32,271 bases of DNA, taken from positions 1 to 32,271 of the forward strand of contig SXTU01000287.1 of the NCBI GenBank assembly GCA_005791875.1. Reading direction: 5' to 3'. Each line of letters opens with the position of its first letter. The first letter of the stretch is position 1. This document shows positions 1,398-27,794 of this stretch, in pieces. The notes beneath the pieces are model-generated. The model had not been told where the DNA came from, made no database searches, and worked only from the letters and a program-made list of their open reading frames with translations. The position numbers were made by a program, and so were the translations under genes. This stretch comes from Verrucomicrobiales bacterium. Lineage in GTDB: Bacteria; Verrucomicrobiota; Verrucomicrobiia; Limisphaerales; SXTU01.

Positions 1398-4300
1398 TCA
1401 GCCTTTGGAAATTATCTCGTCAAGGTTCAGGAGCGCGCGGGCGAGGGCGGTCCAGGCGGCGCGTTCGGTGGCATCGCCATCGCCGGGGCCGGCGAAGGCG
1501 GCGGGTTTTAACTCGCCGCTGGCGAAGCGGGCGCGTTGGTTCTCGAAGAACTTCACGAGCTGCGCGCGCTCGTCGGCGGAGGGCGGGCGGGTGACGCAGC
1601 GGCGGAAGAGCTTTTCCACGCGGCTCTCGATGGTGCCGGCCTGCGCGGTAAACTGGCGGCCGAGGGCTTGTGCGGCTTCGATGATGACGGTGTCGTTGAG
1701 CAGCGTGAGAGCTTGGAGCGGAGTGTTCGAGACATCGCGGCGGGCGACGCAGGCTTCGCCGCTGGGGCCGTCGAAGGTGTTGAACATCGCGTAGGGGGCC
1801 GAGCGTTTCGCGAAGGTGTAGAGGCCGCGTCGGTAGCGGTCCTCGCCTTTGCTCTCGTCCCACGACTTGCCGCCATAGACGCCTTCGGACGTGACGCTCG
1901 CGGGCTGAGGCGGGAAGACGCTCGGCCCACCGACTTTCGCCGAGAGCTGGCCGCTGGCGCGGAGGACGGAGTCGCGGATCATCTCGGCGTCGAGGCGGGA
2001 GCGGGGGAAGCGGGAGAGGAGGCGATTGTCCGGGTCGAGAGTCGAGGGGCGGGTGCCAAGGGCTTGCGACTGACGATCTTCGACTCTCGACGATTGCTGA
2101 TATGTCGCGCTGGTCACGATGAGCTTGTGCAACTGCTTCAGCGACCAGCCCTGCTTCACAAAATCTACCGCCAGCCAGTCGAGCAACTCTGGGTGCGTGG
2201 GCGCGTCCGCCTGCAGGCCGAAGTCCTCGGTGGTCCGCACGAGGCCGAGGCCGAAGAACGCAGCCCACTGACGGTTCACGGTGACGCGCGCGGTGAGCGG
2301 GTTCTCCGGCGAGACGAGCCATTGCGCGAAGCCGAGACGGTTCACGGGCGCGCCGGGCGGGAGCGGATTCAGCACGCCGAGCACTGCGGGCGCGACGGTT
2401 TCCTTCGGCGACAGGAACTCGCCGCGATGATGGCGGTGCGTGGGGCGCGGGTTCTCTGGTGGACGCTCGCGCAGGACGAGCGTGGTCTGGTGTGCGGGTG
2501 GCTTGCGGAGCTTCTCGATTTCAGCGCGGGCGTCCTTCAACTCCGGCGCGGCGAGCAGGAAATGGTCGCGGAGCTTCGCGCGCTCGGCGGCGGTGAGTTG
2601 CGCGTCGGGGTGGAGCAGCAACTGCTGCGCTTCGAGCGGCAAGGTGCTCGCGCTCGCGCCGCGTGGGTCAGTGGTGTAGGCAATGCGGAAGCGGCCGAGC
2701 GACGCGGCGTAGTGGCGACCGAACAGCATCTTCACGCGCAAGTCACCCCCGACGCGGAGCGGTTCGGCGAGGTTGAAGACCGCCTCGTGGCGCTCGCCTT
2801 CGCGTGTGGCGGTGGACCAGCCGGTTTCCGGGTTGCCATCCGTGGCGAGCGCAGCGGTGACGGGGGCACCACCGAAGTTGTTTTTGCTAAAACTCTCGGT
2901 GGCGCGGACGAGTTTCAACTGGCTGCTTGCGGCAAAGACCTTGAACTCGCCCATGAAAAAATCCCCCTTGCGGCCCTCGTAGTAAGTCATGCCCGGCCCG
3001 TGCGCGGGCAGGCGGTCATCGGGCAACGCTTCGAGGCGCAGGGCGGTGACGCCGGCGGGGACATTCCGGAAGGTGAGTTCGTAAGTATCCGCCTTCGTGA
3101 TGTCGCCGCTGGCGAAGACGGAATCGTCTGGCTGCACCGTGAGGAGTGGGAGACTGGACTTCGCCTCGGCGGGGCGAAGCGGCGTCCACTTCACACCGCG
3201 GGCGCGTTCGGTGGCGAGCCATTCCGAGAAGCGAGAGGCGAGGTGTTCGGGGCCGGTGAGTGCGGGCGTGGCCTTTGAGTTCGCTGGGAACTTGCTCGGC
3301 AACTCGGCGAGCAACTCAGCAGCACGCGCGAAATTCTTCCGATGCTGCTCCGCCAGCGCGGGGTCGGGCAGGTCTTGGTCGGGCTCGTCGGCGTTGTTGA
3401 GGAAGGCCATCAGCGCGTAGAAGTCGGTGTGCGGGATGGGGTCGAACTTGTGCGTGTGGCATTGCGCGCAGCCAACGGTGAGGCCGAGCCACGTGGTGCT
3501 CGTGGTGGCGACGCGATCCACCATCGCGTAGAAGCGGAACTCCAGTGGGTCAATGCCGCCTTCCTCGTTGAGCATCGTATTGCGATGGAAGCCGGTGGCG
3601 ATGAGCGGGTCGAGTTTCTTGGGTTTGAGATCTGAGATTTGAGATGCGGGGAGGAGGTCGCCGGCGAGTTGGTGAATCGTGAACTGGTCGAAGGGGAGGT
3701 TTTCGTTCAGCGCGCGGATGACCCAGTCGCGCCACGGCCAGATGTTGCGCGGGCGGTCCTTCTCGTAGCCGTTGGTGTCGGCGTAGCGGGCGAGGTCGAG
3801 CCACTTGCGCGCCCAACGCTCGCCGTAGTGCGGTGAGGCGAGGAGTTTGTCGGCGAGATTGCCGATGGCCGATGGCCGATGGCCGATTTGAACAGACTTC
3901 ACGAACGCGTCGGCCTCCTCGGGTGTTGGCGGCAGGCCGATTAAATCCAAGTAAAGTCGGCGCACGAGCGTGTAGTCATCGGCGGGCGCAGAGGGCTTCA
4001 AGCCCCCCTTCTCCAAGCGCGTGAGGATGAAGTGGTCAATCGCATTCTGCGGCCAAGCTGTCTGCTTCACCTTCGGCAGCGGCGCCTGCTTCGGCTTGAT
4101 GAACGCCCAGTGCGGCTCGTAGTCCGCTCCCGCGGCAATCCAGCGGCGCAGCGTGTCCACCTCGGCGGCCGTGAGCTCCTTCTTGGTCTCGGGGGGCGGC
4201 ATGACCTTGTTGTGGTCCGTGCTCGTGATGCGGCGGACGAGTTCGCTGGCGTCGGGCTTGCCGGGGACGAGGGCGCGCTTGCCGGACTTGGCGGGTGCGA

Positions 4301-4496
4301 GCGCGGAGTCGCGGAGGTCAAGGCGGAGTTTCCCCTTACGGCTGTGTTCATCCGGCCCGTGGCAGGCGAAGCACTGGCGAGAGAGAATGGGGCGAACTTC
4401 GCGCTGGAAGTCCGGCGCCGCGGGCTCAGCAAGTAATTGAATCGCACCCAGCACGGCGGCAAACGCGGTGGCAAAAAGTTTCACACGACTCGTCAC
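1398..4496 (-). CDS. PSD1 / planctomycete cytochrome c domain protein (PSCyt1-DUF1549-DUF1553)
   Basis: This 1032-residue secreted protein starts with GTG (an in-frame GTG four codons later is an alternative) and a signal-peptide-like segment (about 5-24). Domains in order: a PSCyt1 c-type heme module with CFACH at 42-46 and VMPPPE before an AGADY motif; DUF1549 (about 135-390) with GLPPTPEE, SPHYGERWARKWLDLARY, ATGFHRNTMLNEEGG and a second heme-type motif CAQCHTHKFDP near 350; a beta-rich middle region; and DUF1553 (about 690-980) with NRQWAAFFGLGLV, LDWLAVDF and GGPSVFPPQP. It sits directly upstream of DUF1501. The two CxxCH motifs suggest covalent heme and a periplasmic redox or sensing role, but the family has no proven activity. 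Three surface loops contain short tandem-repeat-derived peptides (see repeat entries), which lengthen linkers without breaking the frame. Confidence 0.95.
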   Translation of the reverse strand: MTSRVKLFATAFAAVLGAIQLLAEPAAPDFQREVRPILSRQCFACHGPDEHSRKGKLRLDLRDSALAPAKSGKRALVPGKPDASELVRRITSTDHNKVMPPPETKKELTAAEVDTLRRWIAAGADYEPHWAFIKPKQAPLPKVKQTAWPQNAIDHFILTRLEKGGLKPSAPADDYTLVRRLYLDLIGLPPTPEEADAFVKSVQIGHRPSAIGNLADKLLASPHYGERWARKWLDLARYADTNGYEKDRPRNIWPWRDWVIRALNENLPFDQFTIHQLAGDLLPASQISDLKPKKLDPLIATGFHRNTMLNEEGGIDPLEFRFYAMVDRVATTSTTWLGLTVGCAQCHTHKFDPIPHTDFYALMAFLNNADEPDQDLPDPALAEQHRKNFARAAELLAELPSKFPANSKATPALTGPEHLASRFSEWLATERARGVKWTPLRPAEAKSSLPLLTVQPDDSVFASGDITKADTYELTFRNVPAGVTALRLEALPDDRLPAHGPGMTYYEGRKGDFFMGEFKVFAASSQLKLVRATESFSKNNFGGAPVTAALATDGNPETGWSTATREGERHEAVFNLAEPLRVGGDLRVKMLFGRHYAASLGRFRIAYTTDPRGASASTLPLEAQQLLLHPDAQLTAAERAKLRDHFLLAAPELKDARAEIEKLRKPPAHQTTLVLRERPPENPRPTHRHHRGEFLSPKETVAPAVLGVLNPLPPGAPVNRLGFAQWLVSPENPLTARVTVNRQWAAFFGLGLVRTTEDFGLQADAPTHPELLDWLAVDFVKQGWSLKQLHKLIVTSATYQQSSRVEDRQSQALGTRPSTLDPDNRLLSRFPRSRLDAEMIRDSVLRASGQLSAKVGGPSVFPPQPASVTSEGVYGGKSWDESKGEDRYRRGLYTFAKRSAPYAMFNTFDGPSGEACVARRDVSNTPLQALTLLNDTVIIEAAQALGRQFTAQAGTIESRVEKLFRRCVTRPPSADERAQLVKFFENQRARFASGELKPAAFAGPGDGDATERAAWTALARALLNLDEIISKG
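2032..2090. repeat. Heptamer TCGNNNN array inside the PSD1 gene
   Basis: Read on the coding (-) strand, 7-bp units beginning TCG follow one another (TCGAGAG, TCGAAGA, TCGTCAG, TCGCAAG), then about 17 bp, then TCGACTC and TCGACCC. The outer units are mutually inverted (TCGAGAG against CTCTCGA). The array encodes the peptide RVEDRQSQALGTRPSTLDPD, between conserved TSATYQQSS and NRLLSRFPRSRLDAEMIRDS. From memory of the family this linker is normally about 11 residues, so the array adds roughly seven. Confidence 0.75.
3624..3644. repeat. Heptamer TTTGAGA array inside the PSD1 gene
   Basis: Three consecutive 7-bp units on the + strand: TTTGAGA, TCTGAGA, TTTGAGA. Translated on the - strand they give part of SQISDLKPKK, lying between QLAGDLLPA and LDPLIATGFHRNT, at a loop that is usually short (NPTPEQ-like) in this family. 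Confidence 0.75.
3861..3888. repeat. Heptamer GCCGATG array inside the PSD1 gene
   Basis: Four consecutive 7-bp units on the + strand: three exact GCCGATG and one GCCGATT. On the coding strand they produce IGHRPSAIGN, in the loop between ADAFVKS and LADKLLASPHYGERW of the DUF1549 domain. Confidence 0.85.
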
Positions 4497-7641: not shown

Positions 7642-7730
7642 TTAGCCGCGAAAGGGCGCAGAGGACACAGGGAAGAAGAAAAATTTTAGCGCGCCCCACT
7701 TTGCGCTCTCTGCGCCCTTTCGTGGCAAAG
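7642..7730. repeat. Inverted repeat around AAAGGGCGCAGAG
   Basis: A 15-bp word beginning CGAAAGGG (7649-7663) recurs as its exact reverse complement at 7708-7722; similarity extends outward (TTAGCCG against TTTGCCA). It fills most of the gap between the deoxyhypusine-synthase-like stop and the kinase start, so a transcript crossing it would fold into a stem with a loop of about 44 nt. It looks like a dispersed element, since similar words of the form CACGAAAGGGCACAGAG are familiar from other genomes (recollection). Confidence 0.7.
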
Positions 7731-7739
7731 AGGCATTTA

Positions 7740-8918
7740 TCACCACTGGTAGCGCGGTTCGGGGTTGGGGTCGCCGATGTCGGGAACGTCCTTCGTCGCG
7801 GTGCGACCGTGGAGGATTTCCAATTTGTGGAAGAGGTGGTGGAGGAATGTCACGTTGTCGCACTGGGCGTAGTGCATCGCGCCGCCCATGCGGGAGAAGC
7901 TCTTGCAGAAGCGCAGATAGTAAGCCGGGTTTTCCTTGGGTGGCTCGCCCTTGGTCCAGTCCCAGTTGCCGCCGTCCTGGAGGTCCACCACGTAGAGGTT
8001 GTGGCCGCTGACGATGGGCAGGCCAGCTTGGAGGCGGAGGTTGTTCACGCAACTGATGCTCTTCTCGAAGACCTGTGGCCCCATGATGGCCGAGCCGACG
8101 CTCAGGACCACGCCGCCGTCCAGCTTCTCCACCGAGCCGCCGAAGAGCGCGAAGTCCACGCCCGCCGCGCGCCCGATGACGCCGCCGTTGAACCACGGAT
8201 GATTCGCGATGATGTCGTAGCCGATGCCGGGATGCACGGTGAAGGGCACGTCGTGTCGCGCGGCCTGCGCGAGCACGCTGGAGTTGCGGTGCGGGTGCGG
8301 GACGATGTGCGGGCCGGGCTTGAGGCCGAAGCGTTGGATGGCTTGGAGCAAGTCCGCGCGCGCGGCGGTGAGCGGGTGGCCGGGTTCGGCTTGAATCTGC
8401 TTCGTCAGCTCGGCCTCGCTCGGGATGAACGTGCCATCTTCGTAGATGAACTTGCCGAGGGACTTGCCGTAGCCGAAGCCGCGCACGGCCCCGGCCAGCA
8501 ACGCGAGGTGGATGTAGCGCCCCGTCTCGTCCCAGGTGCCGAAGCTGCCGGTGGCGACGTTGTCGCGAACGCTCTCGGTCGAGCGGCCGAGCCAGGAGAA
8601 TTCCCAGTCGTGAATCGTCCCCGCGCCGTTCGTCGCGAGGTGCGAGAGGAAGCCGCGGTCGAGCATCTGGCCGAGGAGAAGCTGGCCGCCCTTCTTCACG
8701 AGGTGCGCGCCATAGATGAACATCACAGACGCGCCACGCTCCAGCGCGGCCTTGATGTCGCAGGCGCACCGCTCGATGAGCGCGGCGTTGAAGTCGCTGA
8801 CGGGCGGCGGCACGGCGGTTGGCTCGATGAGCACTTCGTCCACGGTGCTCAGGCTCTTGCGCTGCGCGAGCGGGAAGACGCGGATTTTGGAGAGGTCGAG
8901 AGGGGCGGGAGGTTGCAT
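7740..8918 (-). CDS. Deoxyhypusine-synthase-like protein (tentative)
   Basis: A 392-residue soluble protein starting at ATG 8918. Distinctive stretches are MFIYGAHLVKKGGQLLLG, HLATNGAGTIHDWEFSWLG, SVRDNVATGSFGTWDETGR, FTVHPGIGYDIIANHPWFNG, LFGGSVEKLDGGVVLSVGSA and IMGPQVFEKSISCVNNLR. I associate these with a bacterial family related to deoxyhypusine synthase (NAD-binding fold), occasionally found near heptose/LPS sugar genes; this is recollection, not a search. The many glycine-rich loops fit dinucleotide binding. Bacteria lack eIF5A, so the true substrate is unlikely to be hypusine-related. It follows the HAD phosphatase by 13 bp and precedes the PfkB kinase, suggesting a shared small-molecule pathway. 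Confidence 0.6.
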   Translation of the reverse strand: MQPPAPLDLSKIRVFPLAQRKSLSTVDEVLIEPTAVPPPVSDFNAALIERCACDIKAALERGASVMFIYGAHLVKKGGQLLLGQMLDRGFLSHLATNGAGTIHDWEFSWLGRSTESVRDNVATGSFGTWDETGRYIHLALLAGAVRGFGYGKSLGKFIYEDGTFIPSEAELTKQIQAEPGHPLTAARADLLQAIQRFGLKPGPHIVPHPHRNSSVLAQAARHDVPFTVHPGIGYDIIANHPWFNGGVIGRAAGVDFALFGGSVEKLDGGVVLSVGSAIMGPQVFEKSISCVNNLRLQAGLPIVSGHNLYVVDLQDGGNWDWTKGEPPKENPAYYLRFCKSFSRMGGAMHYAQCDNVTFLHHLFHKLEILHGRTATKDVPDIGDPNPEPRYQW

Positions 8919-25550: not shown

Positions 25551-27794
25551 TCACTTCTTGCTCTGCACCATCGTCTGCAGCTCCCGGTGGTTCGTCTTGC
25601 CCGTGCCGAGTTTGGGGATTTCCTTCACGACGACTATCTCGCGCGGCACGCAGAGGTTCGAGAGGCCTTTGGACTTGATGGCATCGCGTATCTCAGCGGA
25701 GGTGAGTCTCGGCTCGTTCGTGCAGCAGATGAGGGCCTCGCCCTTGTCCTCGTCGGGACGCGTGACGACGGCGGTGGCCATGCGGAGGCCGTAGTGCGGG
25801 AACGCGCCAGCCAAGGCGTCCTCGACCGCCGTGAGGCTGACCATCTCGCCGCTGATTTTGGCAAAGCGCTTGAGGCGTCCGCGAATGGTGACGAAGCCAT
25901 CGGCATCCACGCTGACGATGTCGCCAGTGTCATACCAGCCGCCGTGAGCTTGGAACTTGGCGTTGGCATCCAGGTTGAGGTAGCCCTTCATGATGTTGGG
26001 GCCGCGGACGAAGAGGCGGCCGGTGGGCACCGCTGGGGTCTGGGGTCTGGGGTCTGGGGTCTGGGGATTAGCGTTGGGAGAATGGGGGGCCGTGGGTTGG
26101 TGGGGCGGTGGTTGAGGGGGGGCTTCGCCAATCCCTTCCACGGATTCCAATCGCCACTCGACGCCGGGCATGAAGCGGCCTACGGAGCCGTAGCTTGGCT
26201 CGAGCGGAGTGTTGACGCTGAGGCAGGGGGCGCATTCCGTTGCGCCGTAGCCTTCCAGCACCCTCACGCCGAAACGTTGTGACCACGTCTGGGCAGTGGC
26301 TTCCTGTAGTTTCTCCGCCGCCGCAAAGAGATAGCGCATCGAGCGGAAGTCGTAGGTGTGGGCCTTCCGGCCGTAGCCGTTGAGGAAGGTGTTGGTGCTC
26401 AGAAGCACGGTGCAGTCGCGGTCGTAGAGCACGCTGGGGATGACCCGGTAATGCAGCGGCGAGGGATAAATAAAGCAATACATCCCCCGCACCAGCGGCA
26501 CGAGGAGCCCGACGGTGAGGCCGAAGCTGTGGAAGAGCGGCAGGCAGTTGAAGAGCCGGTCCTGGTCCGTCAGGTCCGTGACGGCCATCATCTGGCGGAT
26601 GTTGGCAAGGATGTTGCGGTGCGTCAGCTCGACGCCCTTGGGGACGCCTTCGGAGCCGCTGGTGAAGAGGATGACGGCGGTGTCGCTTGGTTGAGAGTTG
26701 AAAGTTGAGAGTTGAAAGTTGAAGAGGGTGCTGAGGAATGCTGTGGCCTTGTCCCAGCTAGTGATGAGTTTGCGGAGGTCTTCGAGGTAGAGGAGTTGCA
26801 CGCCGGCTTGCTCGAAGGGCGCGGCGTCGAGCTTCGCCCGCGCGAGGAAGGTGCGGGAGGTGACGACTTGCTTCAGACCGGCCAGCTCGATGCACGCGAG
26901 CATCGTGGCCGTTCCGGTGGAGTAGTTCAAGACGGCGGGGACTTTGCCCTGTTGCCACAGGGCGAGGAGGACGACGGGGGTGGCGTTGACGTTCGGGAGC
27001 AGCACGCCGATGTGGGATGGGCTGGAGGCCGAGGCTGCACCCGCCGCTGCGATGCGCTCGCCCATGAGCCGCGCGCCGAGGAGGAGTTTCCGATAAGTGA
27101 GGGCCGAGAGCGTGGCGTCCTCGAGGATAACTTTGCCCGGCATGTCCGCCGCCGCTTCCGCGATGGCGGCGGGGAGGGTCGCGGGGCCAAAATCCATCTC
27201 GGTGCGGAACTGCTGGCCGACCATCGCATCGCGCAGCCAGCGGGTGAAGAGGGCGCGGCTCTGCGAGGTGCTCAGGTGCTCTGCATGGGGTGCGGAGAGG
27301 GCGTCGCTGAAGTGCGCGGTGACGGTGGGGAAGCAGCGTTTCCATCCGGGATTAGGCGAGTAAGGAAGTCTGCTCGCGCCGCGCAGGTAGGCGGTGATGA
27401 CCTTCGCGTGGGTCTTGTGGATGAGGAAGCCGGTGCCATCAAAGAGCTTCATCAGGGTGCCGGTCTTCGAGAGCCGGCCCTCGGCGAAGAGGACGAGCTT
27501 GCCGCCTTTCAAGAGAAACTCCGCCATGTGCTTCACGGCGTAGGGGGAGGCGTTGTCTATCGGGAAGGTGCGGTCGTTGACCATGACGAACTTGTGCAGC
27601 CAGGACTTCTTGGCGGTGGTGCTGGAGGTGACGAACTTCCAGTCGTCCTCGAGGCACACGCCGAGGAAGAGCCAGTCGAACCACGAGGTGTGGTTGGGGA
27701 TGAGGAGGACGGGGCCGGGGGTGCGGAGGGCGGCCTCGTTGAAGGCGCGGAAGCGGAAGAGGAGGCGGACGAGGAGGCGGAGGAGGGTTTTCAT
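25551..27794 (-). CDS. aas: Bifunctional acyltransferase / acyl-ACP synthetase (Aas-like)
   Basis: Aas re-acylates 2-acyl-lysophospholipid using acyl-ACP that it makes itself. The 747-residue product has an N-terminal PlsC-type acyltransferase (about 1-190) with H-X4-D (NHTSWFDW, His35/Asp40), DRTFPIDN and LVLFAEGRLS, then an AMP-forming domain with FTSGSEGVPKGVELTH near 370, EGYGATECAP, GWYDTGDIVSVDADGFV and KRFAKISGEMVSL, ending with the catalytic Lys region LGTGKTNHREL. E. coli Aas is 719 aa; the excess is explained by two low-complexity insertions near residues 357-367 and 565-592 derived from heptamer repeats. It is the last gene after lplT and an Lnt-like gene, a coherent lysophospholipid recycling set at the inner membrane. 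Confidence 0.93.
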   Translation of the reverse strand: MKTLLRLLVRLLFRFRAFNEAALRTPGPVLLIPNHTSWFDWLFLGVCLEDDWKFVTSSTTAKKSWLHKFVMVNDRTFPIDNASPYAVKHMAEFLLKGGKLVLFAEGRLSKTGTLMKLFDGTGFLIHKTHAKVITAYLRGASRLPYSPNPGWKRCFPTVTAHFSDALSAPHAEHLSTSQSRALFTRWLRDAMVGQQFRTEMDFGPATLPAAIAEAAADMPGKVILEDATLSALTYRKLLLGARLMGERIAAAGAASASSPSHIGVLLPNVNATPVVLLALWQQGKVPAVLNYSTGTATMLACIELAGLKQVVTSRTFLARAKLDAAPFEQAGVQLLYLEDLRKLITSWDKATAFLSTLFNFQLSTFNSQPSDTAVILFTSGSEGVPKGVELTHRNILANIRQMMAVTDLTDQDRLFNCLPLFHSFGLTVGLLVPLVRGMYCFIYPSPLHYRVIPSVLYDRDCTVLLSTNTFLNGYGRKAHTYDFRSMRYLFAAAEKLQEATAQTWSQRFGVRVLEGYGATECAPCLSVNTPLEPSYGSVGRFMPGVEWRLESVEGIGEAPPQPPPHQPTAPHSPNANPQTPDPRPQTPAVPTGRLFVRGPNIMKGYLNLDANAKFQAHGGWYDTGDIVSVDADGFVTIRGRLKRFAKISGEMVSLTAVEDALAGAFPHYGLRMATAVVTRPDEDKGEALICCTNEPRLTSAEIRDAIKSKGLSNLCVPREIVVVKEIPKLGTGKTNHRELQTMVQSKK
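26033..26067. repeat. Heptamer CTGGGGT array inside aas
   Basis: Four exact CTGGGGT units and one CTGGGGA, consecutive on the + strand. On the coding strand they encode PQTPDPRPQTPA, part of a roughly 30-residue proline-rich insertion between RLESVEGIGEA and TGRLFVRGPNIMKGYL, where homologues have only a few residues. Confidence 0.9.
26689..26723. repeat. Heptamer AGTTGAR array inside aas
   Basis: Five consecutive 7-bp units on the + strand: GGTTGAG, AGTTGAA, AGTTGAG, AGTTGAA, AGTTGAA. On the coding strand they encode FNFQLSTFNSQP, inserted directly before DTAVILFTSGSEG, the adenylation P-loop. Confidence 0.9.

Follow-up and report, generated by a model that had tools for sequence, protein, structure and literature searches.

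Heptamer arrays in open genes of a Limisphaerales-type genus: an array in a PSD1 gene and its counterparts

Genes are expected to lose repeats whose unit length is not divisible by three. An earlier survey, recounted in PMC4679880, found units that are a multiple of three to be the likeliest ones in coding regions. Heptamers are the commonest long class of simple sequence repeat in many bacteria (PMC4692102, PMC4679880), and a bacterial preference for period 7 was reported in Mrazek's survey, as cited in both of these papers. The single-word cases that they describe are mostly intergenic, like GGGAATC in Xanthomonas and GGGGA(C/T)T in Nostoc (PMC4692102), or TAACTGA in Beggiatoaceae (PMC4679880).

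The arrays described here resemble the cyanobacterial STRR of Calothrix and other bacterial heptamers in having a 7-bp unit in few copies, dispersed and dense between genes. The 7-bp period is over-represented here too, and the few dispersed copies are near-perfect. Unlike the STRR-type heptamers described in these papers, which centre on one or few words and are mostly intergenic, the present set has 28 words in 51 arrays and is about half genic. Neither a mostly intergenic placement nor one or few fixed words per genome is found here. A further difference is that the words here differ at orthologous coding sites. One class of words, AATGACC, is what we take to be the Calothrix STRR word TTGGTCA.

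Rickettsia palindromic elements (RPE) offer another comparison, as these too are short repeated DNA tolerated in frame within genes (PMC10969869). As described there, RPE are palindromic units of around 150 bp, whereas the arrays here are direct repeats of some 21-35 bp, and 22 of 24 coding arrays have no bracketing inverted repeat. A palindromic carrier element was rejected on the same count, with only 2 of the 24 bracketed. In the control for inverted repeats some scores were maximal, which is ascribed to runs of N; its quantiles are usable up to 95%.

The preliminary description of this DNA supposed that heptamer inserts in coding sequence were undescribed in Verrucomicrobiota. This agrees with the open-access literature, where none was found among the matches listed. 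Nor did any of those matches report words that change at a coding site between orthologues.

The window is the whole stretch of DNA that was analysed, 32,271 nucleotides from a Verrucomicrobiales bacterium. One of its genes has three main array sites, counting arrays found in related genomes:

1398..4496, minus strand: host gene, a 1032-aa protein with PSCyt1, PSCyt2 (DUF1549) and PSD1 (DUF1553) domains (Pfam PF07635, PF07583 and PF07587, above cut-offs)
3861..3888, minus strand: perfect heptamer array, (ATCGGCC)n on the coding strand, encoding IGHRPSAIGN; site 1, in DUF1549
3621..3650, minus strand: site 2, around residues 283-292, a weak heptamer tract (TRF 3626-3645)
2028..2084, minus strand: site 3, around residues 805-823, with (CCCAGAC)n in G003, G005, G006 and G007

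The array at site 1 is an uninterrupted period-7 run at 3861-3887, GCCGATG three times plus GCCGAT, with 20 lag-7 matches in succession. It is read in frame in the minus-strand gene, and TRF calls it as 3857-3887 with a score of 55. It was initially given as GCCGATG x3 plus GCCGATT, which stands through 3887, but the period is first broken at base 3888 (T). The array was correctly placed within the DUF1549 domain, as the PF07583 match covers residues 153-370 with the array inside. It was also placed at a loop. The AlphaFold model, with a mean pLDDT of 85.9, instead predicts an ordered helix junction and no floppy loop: residues 203-212 connect helices 192-204 and 207-219, and the region is well ordered. 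Sites 2 and 3 coincide with segments of pLDDT below 50 in that model (287-292 and 808-818).

The array had further been described as adding IGHRPSAIGN to the protein, an insertion that an alignment of homologues should reveal. The peptide is encoded, but relative to congeners it is not an added segment. From the invariant P190 to G225 there are 35 residues in the window protein and 34, 34, 35, 35, 35, 35 and 54 in the other seven rows of the genus, and this near-equal length rules out a recent 10-residue insertion. More distant homologues are mostly 4 residues shorter, with 31 residues over this stretch in 39 out of 53, for a net +4 in the window protein. The same codons hold decayed heptamers in four congeners, at 18 (L087), 16 (L094), 15 (L086) and 14 (L090) lag-7 matches of 21, and a more distant bin (L123) reaches 18 of 21. 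At this site G001 and G009 (L089, L115) reach 8 of 21 matches, which is no periodicity, and the insert in G002 is a different one. The 3861-3887 array occupies an old site and is no fresh insertion. Three of the window's units read GGCCATC where G010 has GGCAATC or GCCAATC, and the window array looks to have been rewritten as a block compared to G010.

In a groundwater Verrucomicrobiota bin this DUF1549 site is occupied by an array with an 8-bp unit, (AAAGCGGG)n (L148:10538-10570). This means that the site accepts a second frame-breaking period too. Elsewhere in the protein, near residue 407, some 24 residues are inserted in G001, G009 and G004 (orthologues L089, L092 and L094). This insert contains PPGERGG-like peptides and, in our view, resembles a translated dispersed palindrome.

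At site 2 arrays of other words are found in G002 (GTTCAAG), G009 (CCAAACC) and G006 (AGACGCC). At site 3 the window itself has no array.

Six 7-bp loci had initially been counted in the window. Three pass a threshold of 16 out of 21 lag-7 matches (3853-3892, 26028-26075 and 26687-26726), where shuffles give a mean of 0.23 and a maximum of 1, and site 2 provides a further, weaker TRF row. The other two passing loci lie in one gene:

25551..27794, minus strand: acyltransferase plus AMP-binding protein, 747 aa (PF01553, PF00501, PF13193), host of the two arrays below
26033..26066, minus strand: perfect heptamer array (CCCAGAC)n, 4.9 copies, with a lag-7 run of 27
26690..26723, minus strand: nested 14-bp array, alternating TCTCAAC and TTTCAAC on the coding strand, around residues 358-369

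Arrays related to the nested one are found at the same site in G003, G005 and G008. At the site of the (CCCAGAC)n array in this gene, G008 has an 8-mer-like tract, and the alignment gave no counterpart in G003 and G006.

G000, the genome of the window, was covered for 1.187 of its 4.716 Mb. The pieces were picked by contig number or known length, and some (C95, C146, C241, C211 and others) for a known PSD1 match or array, making this a non-random sample. Genes were called with our own hexamer caller, and only perfect tracts with at least 14 lag-7 matches were counted. The 1.187 Mb contain 51 perfect period-7 tracts; of the remaining periods from 2 to 21, none reaches more than 7. The first 864 kb have 38 of them, versus 0.0 in triplet shuffles (20 shuffles). 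In called genes of the 1.187 Mb there are 27, versus 0.0 with synonymous-codon resampling and 0.0 with codon-order shuffling (20 rounds each). A genome-wide count against shuffled codons was what the preliminary description had proposed, and it yields an excess. The coding over-representation is real, and the argument from a net in-frame state to selection is also upheld.

Protein-level selection would be a different matter. Here the peptides would be chosen as linkers or helix caps, with the DNA periodicity secondary. Several congeners and paralogues do share the peptide N-R-x-S-A-I at the window site, which the AlphaFold model shows as ordered. But resampling that preserves the protein leaves none of the 27 period-7 tracts, some identical words are also present in intergenic arrays, and peptides at one site can differ widely by species, as they do in the glutaminyl-tRNA synthetase (GlnRS) discussed below. 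This explanation is very unlikely, and for the array class as a whole it is already contradicted.

Of the 51 tracts, 24 are well within genes and 21 intergenic, with the remaining 6 at the edges of genes. The density is one array per 6.1 kb between genes versus one per 44 kb in genes, as expected if coding arrays are purged. Coding arrays are longer, with 11 of 24 reaching at least 21 lag-7 matches versus 1 of 21 intergenic ones (p 0.002); this difference is absent in the congener G002 (5 versus 5 arrays). Perfect tracts in G000 have about 3 to 5 copies, and the most frequent word, AACACGC, occurs 11 times.

G002 has 11 tracts in 400 kb. Outside the genus arrays are far sparser, with 2 in the loci labelled Verrucomicrobiota (518 kb) and 1 in those labelled Planctomycete (665 kb). 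All loci are PSD1-centred; the labels come from record titles, and the last loci were labelled Planctomycete by default. Two loci with no label assigned (18 kb) have 0 arrays. Genus-like loci, 111 kb in all, have 4, every one in the query PSD1 gene and 0 in the flanks.

Five array-bearing genes were compared among congeners: the window PSD1, a second PSD1, GlnRS (PF00749), the acyltransferase/AMP-binding protein and a GKRP/SIS-domain protein. This set has 45 ORFs, with an array defined as at least 11 matches. L115-L121 are row for row equal to loci of G009, G003, G010, G002, G001, G006 and G004, and were taken to be the same genomes. One of each duplicate locus was used, and G007 is present as two fragments in the window PSD1 set. 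The 45 ORFs hold 39 arrays at 15 sites, compared to 0.38 expected from synonymous resampling. Eleven of the 15 sites recur in more than one species; in 8 of these 11 the words differ at 2 or more of 7 positions.

The GlnRS site, at around residues 131-142, is an example. Its word is AAATCCG in G000 and G001, CTCAACT in G007 and G009, and CTCAACG in G008, while G005 has an interrupted CTCAACT array. No 11-match run is present in G002, G003 and G006, and the G010 piece stops short of the site. The resulting peptides diverge between species, for example STLNSQL versus KSEIRNP. In an alignment with the solved GlnRS 5bnz, the 42-residue stretch containing the site (102-143) finds a single counterpart residue. 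The gene, at L006:5001-6806 with orthologues L247-L254, can also be noted for this otherwise unmatched stretch, where several species have heptamer arrays of their own.

In glnS of G001 versus G009 the word is wholly different, while the adjacent 60 bp downstream are identical. This contrast counts against slippage with homogenisation inside the array, though it could stem from recombination with a G000-like lineage. At residue 712 of the second PSD1 the words are AACACGC (G000), AATCGGC (G002) and AACTCAG (G009), with no such run in the remaining species that have the region. Words can also change as a block: G005 has CAACCGG in three neighbouring units versus CAATCGG in four species.

Different words at the same site are on average 2.24 of 7 positions apart (21 pairs), compared to 3.29 for different sites, and 0 of 20,000 permutations were as low. 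For these tests words were gathered by hand, and the within-site test collapsed identical words per site and A820 rotations. The closeness supports common descent of the array with drift of its word. A shared peptide constraint could contribute in part to this similarity. In 8 of the 21 within-site pairs the words differ at 3-4 of 7 positions, which is no closer than random. Of the lag-14 tracts in G000 and G002, 7 out of 8 have a lag-7 identity of at least 0.71, making them nested ABAB 14-bp repeats. Such repeats, including the one at 26690..26723, are a signature of multi-unit duplication.

It is reasonably likely that the window array is a member of a genus-wide, STRR-like set of heptamers that are born by slippage, filtered by reading frame and homogenised within the array while the word drifts. 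Replication slippage or misaligned exchange would duplicate and multiply 7-bp units. In genes, the survivors would be net in-frame and stop-free outcomes at tolerated protein sites, a filter suggested by the arrays being in frame inside open genes. An array would then outlast speciation, which the sites common to several species support, and unit variants would spread along it, making its word drift as a block. This copying is probably a transient misalignment onto a neighbouring unit that leaves length unchanged; the pattern is seen, the mechanism presumed. In the window PSD1, an old (GGCAATC/GCCAATC)n would have become (GGCCATC)3 GGCAATC, with the peptide altered to match. No function of the arrays themselves would be required. 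The specific insertion mechanism that had been suggested earlier is unneeded for most of the evidence, as the relatedness of words within sites and the nested 14-bp repeats point to slippage and homogenisation inside the array.

What slippage from a local seed does not predict is the recurrence of words at unrelated loci, nor the spread of CAATCGG. G000 has 76 identical-word pairs across loci versus 2.6 expected (maximum 13 in 2,000 simulations). Leaving out AACACGC, this is 21 versus 1.6, and PSD1 paralogues are part of the recurrence. Three further PSD1-like genes of G000 (C262, C221 and C146) contain CAATCGG, apparently at the same DUF1549 site (flanking PPTP...L-V-D motif). Identity with the window protein over the listed stretches is 43% for C146 and 53% for C221.

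CAATCGG x3 is present in each of the 11 genomes of the genus and in 29 of the order's remaining 282 (40 of 293 in all), with a very uneven distribution. G008 has 42 overlapping matches, G002 has 35 and G189 has 21, while 253 of the 293 genomes have zero. As a control, the reversed word matched 1 of 293 genomes. G035 has 16 matches for CTCAACT and none for CAATCGG; the CTCAACT search across the order is without a valid control, since this word mirrors itself. In the order's other families, CAATCGG is found inside QueG-family (L288) and MutS-family (L286) genes. It is also carried by a gene in L289 that is, by its local sequence, presumably an aminotransferase, and the KsgA-family gene of L289 has a different heptamer, AATCCAC. 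Eight IMG/VR contigs (L295-L302) contain CAATCGG x3 as well.

These recurrences, the shared DUF1549 site in paralogues, the single-word bursts in particular genomes and the unlike words at one site between species would all suit a process of dispersal. Ectopic conversion, template switching or a mobile process would then carry copies of arrays or words from locus to locus, overwriting existing arrays or variable protein segments. In the orthologue set, however, words from the same genome are no closer across different sites than words from different genomes (3.25 versus 3.27, permutation p 0.53), which argues against copying between loci. A genome-specific lexicon was rejected for this set, as its signal is absent. 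Word sharing between G000 and G002 is not significant either, at 3 of 10 G002 words versus 1.0 expected and up to 6 by chance. Words within one site are related, inverted repeats bracket few coding arrays, as noted above, and around CAATCGG arrays no common flank was seen by eye beyond the PSD1 context. Dispersal of this kind is doubtful. It is likewise unlikely that an active genus-wide process overwrites short protein segments with in-frame heptamer arrays from a limited, partly shared word list. If it did, a repeat length expected to disrupt reading frames would be a standing source of in-frame diversification of protein segments, and orthologous proteins, GlnRS included, would bear different frame-compatible words at fixed sites.

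Bacterial enzymes of the telomerase-like or DRT10 type produce short-unit tandem DNA (PMC12632851), and in this the arrays are alike. Such a reverse transcriptase might add heptamers at breaks by templated synthesis. Unlike in DRT10 systems, a cognate RVT_1 is without a match in 10 of 11 genus genomes: it is present in G002 only, though CAATCGG arrays are in all 11. The 28 words in the G000 sample would also require 28 templates. This route is hardly credible, and RVT_1 enzymes as a source are largely refuted among these genomes, which are 71-95% complete. Ku was found in 0 of the same 11 genomes (71-95% complete), which speaks against Ku-dependent end joining as a general source.

A 7-bp unit change would frameshift any coding array, and the arrays could on that ground be phase-variable contingency loci, where gain or loss of a unit toggles genes off and on. 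The hosts, however, include GlnRS, along with MutS-, QueG- and KsgA-family genes in the order's other families, and are not surface antigens, and perfect tracts are short at about 3-5 copies. Phase variation is highly improbable.

In this Limisphaerales-type genus, a frame-breaking repeat length somehow stays in frame and gets rewritten over time. This genus-wide pattern is more interesting than the 3861-3887 locus. Heptamer arrays in open genes, at shared sites and with block word change, form a natural test of length-neutral homogenisation of tandem repeats. The block change also suggests a route for rewriting short protein segments. In addition, this one genus, with its many informative sites, makes the reason for the bacterial preference for period 7 testable.

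The AACACGC-class arrays (11 of 51 in G000) and related CACGC words are often preceded by a GC-rich TCCGGCG-type motif, as seen by eye. Examples in G000 are L071:3459-3484, L024:6913-6937, L054:17643-17663, L022:10868-10947 and L076:6898-6982. Inverted array pairs, a GCGTG-type followed by a CACGC-type, occur twice at 27-28 bp apart. From these arrangements the class looks like a separate dispersed element.

A 24-bp imperfect palindrome (about GTAGSAGCCGACGTSAGGAGGCTC plus its inverse) is found in frame in two large genes, at L212 around 8814-8840 and at L015 around 7680-7706. Between its arms, both L212, a PSD1 paralogue, and L015 have a heptamer array, each with a different word.
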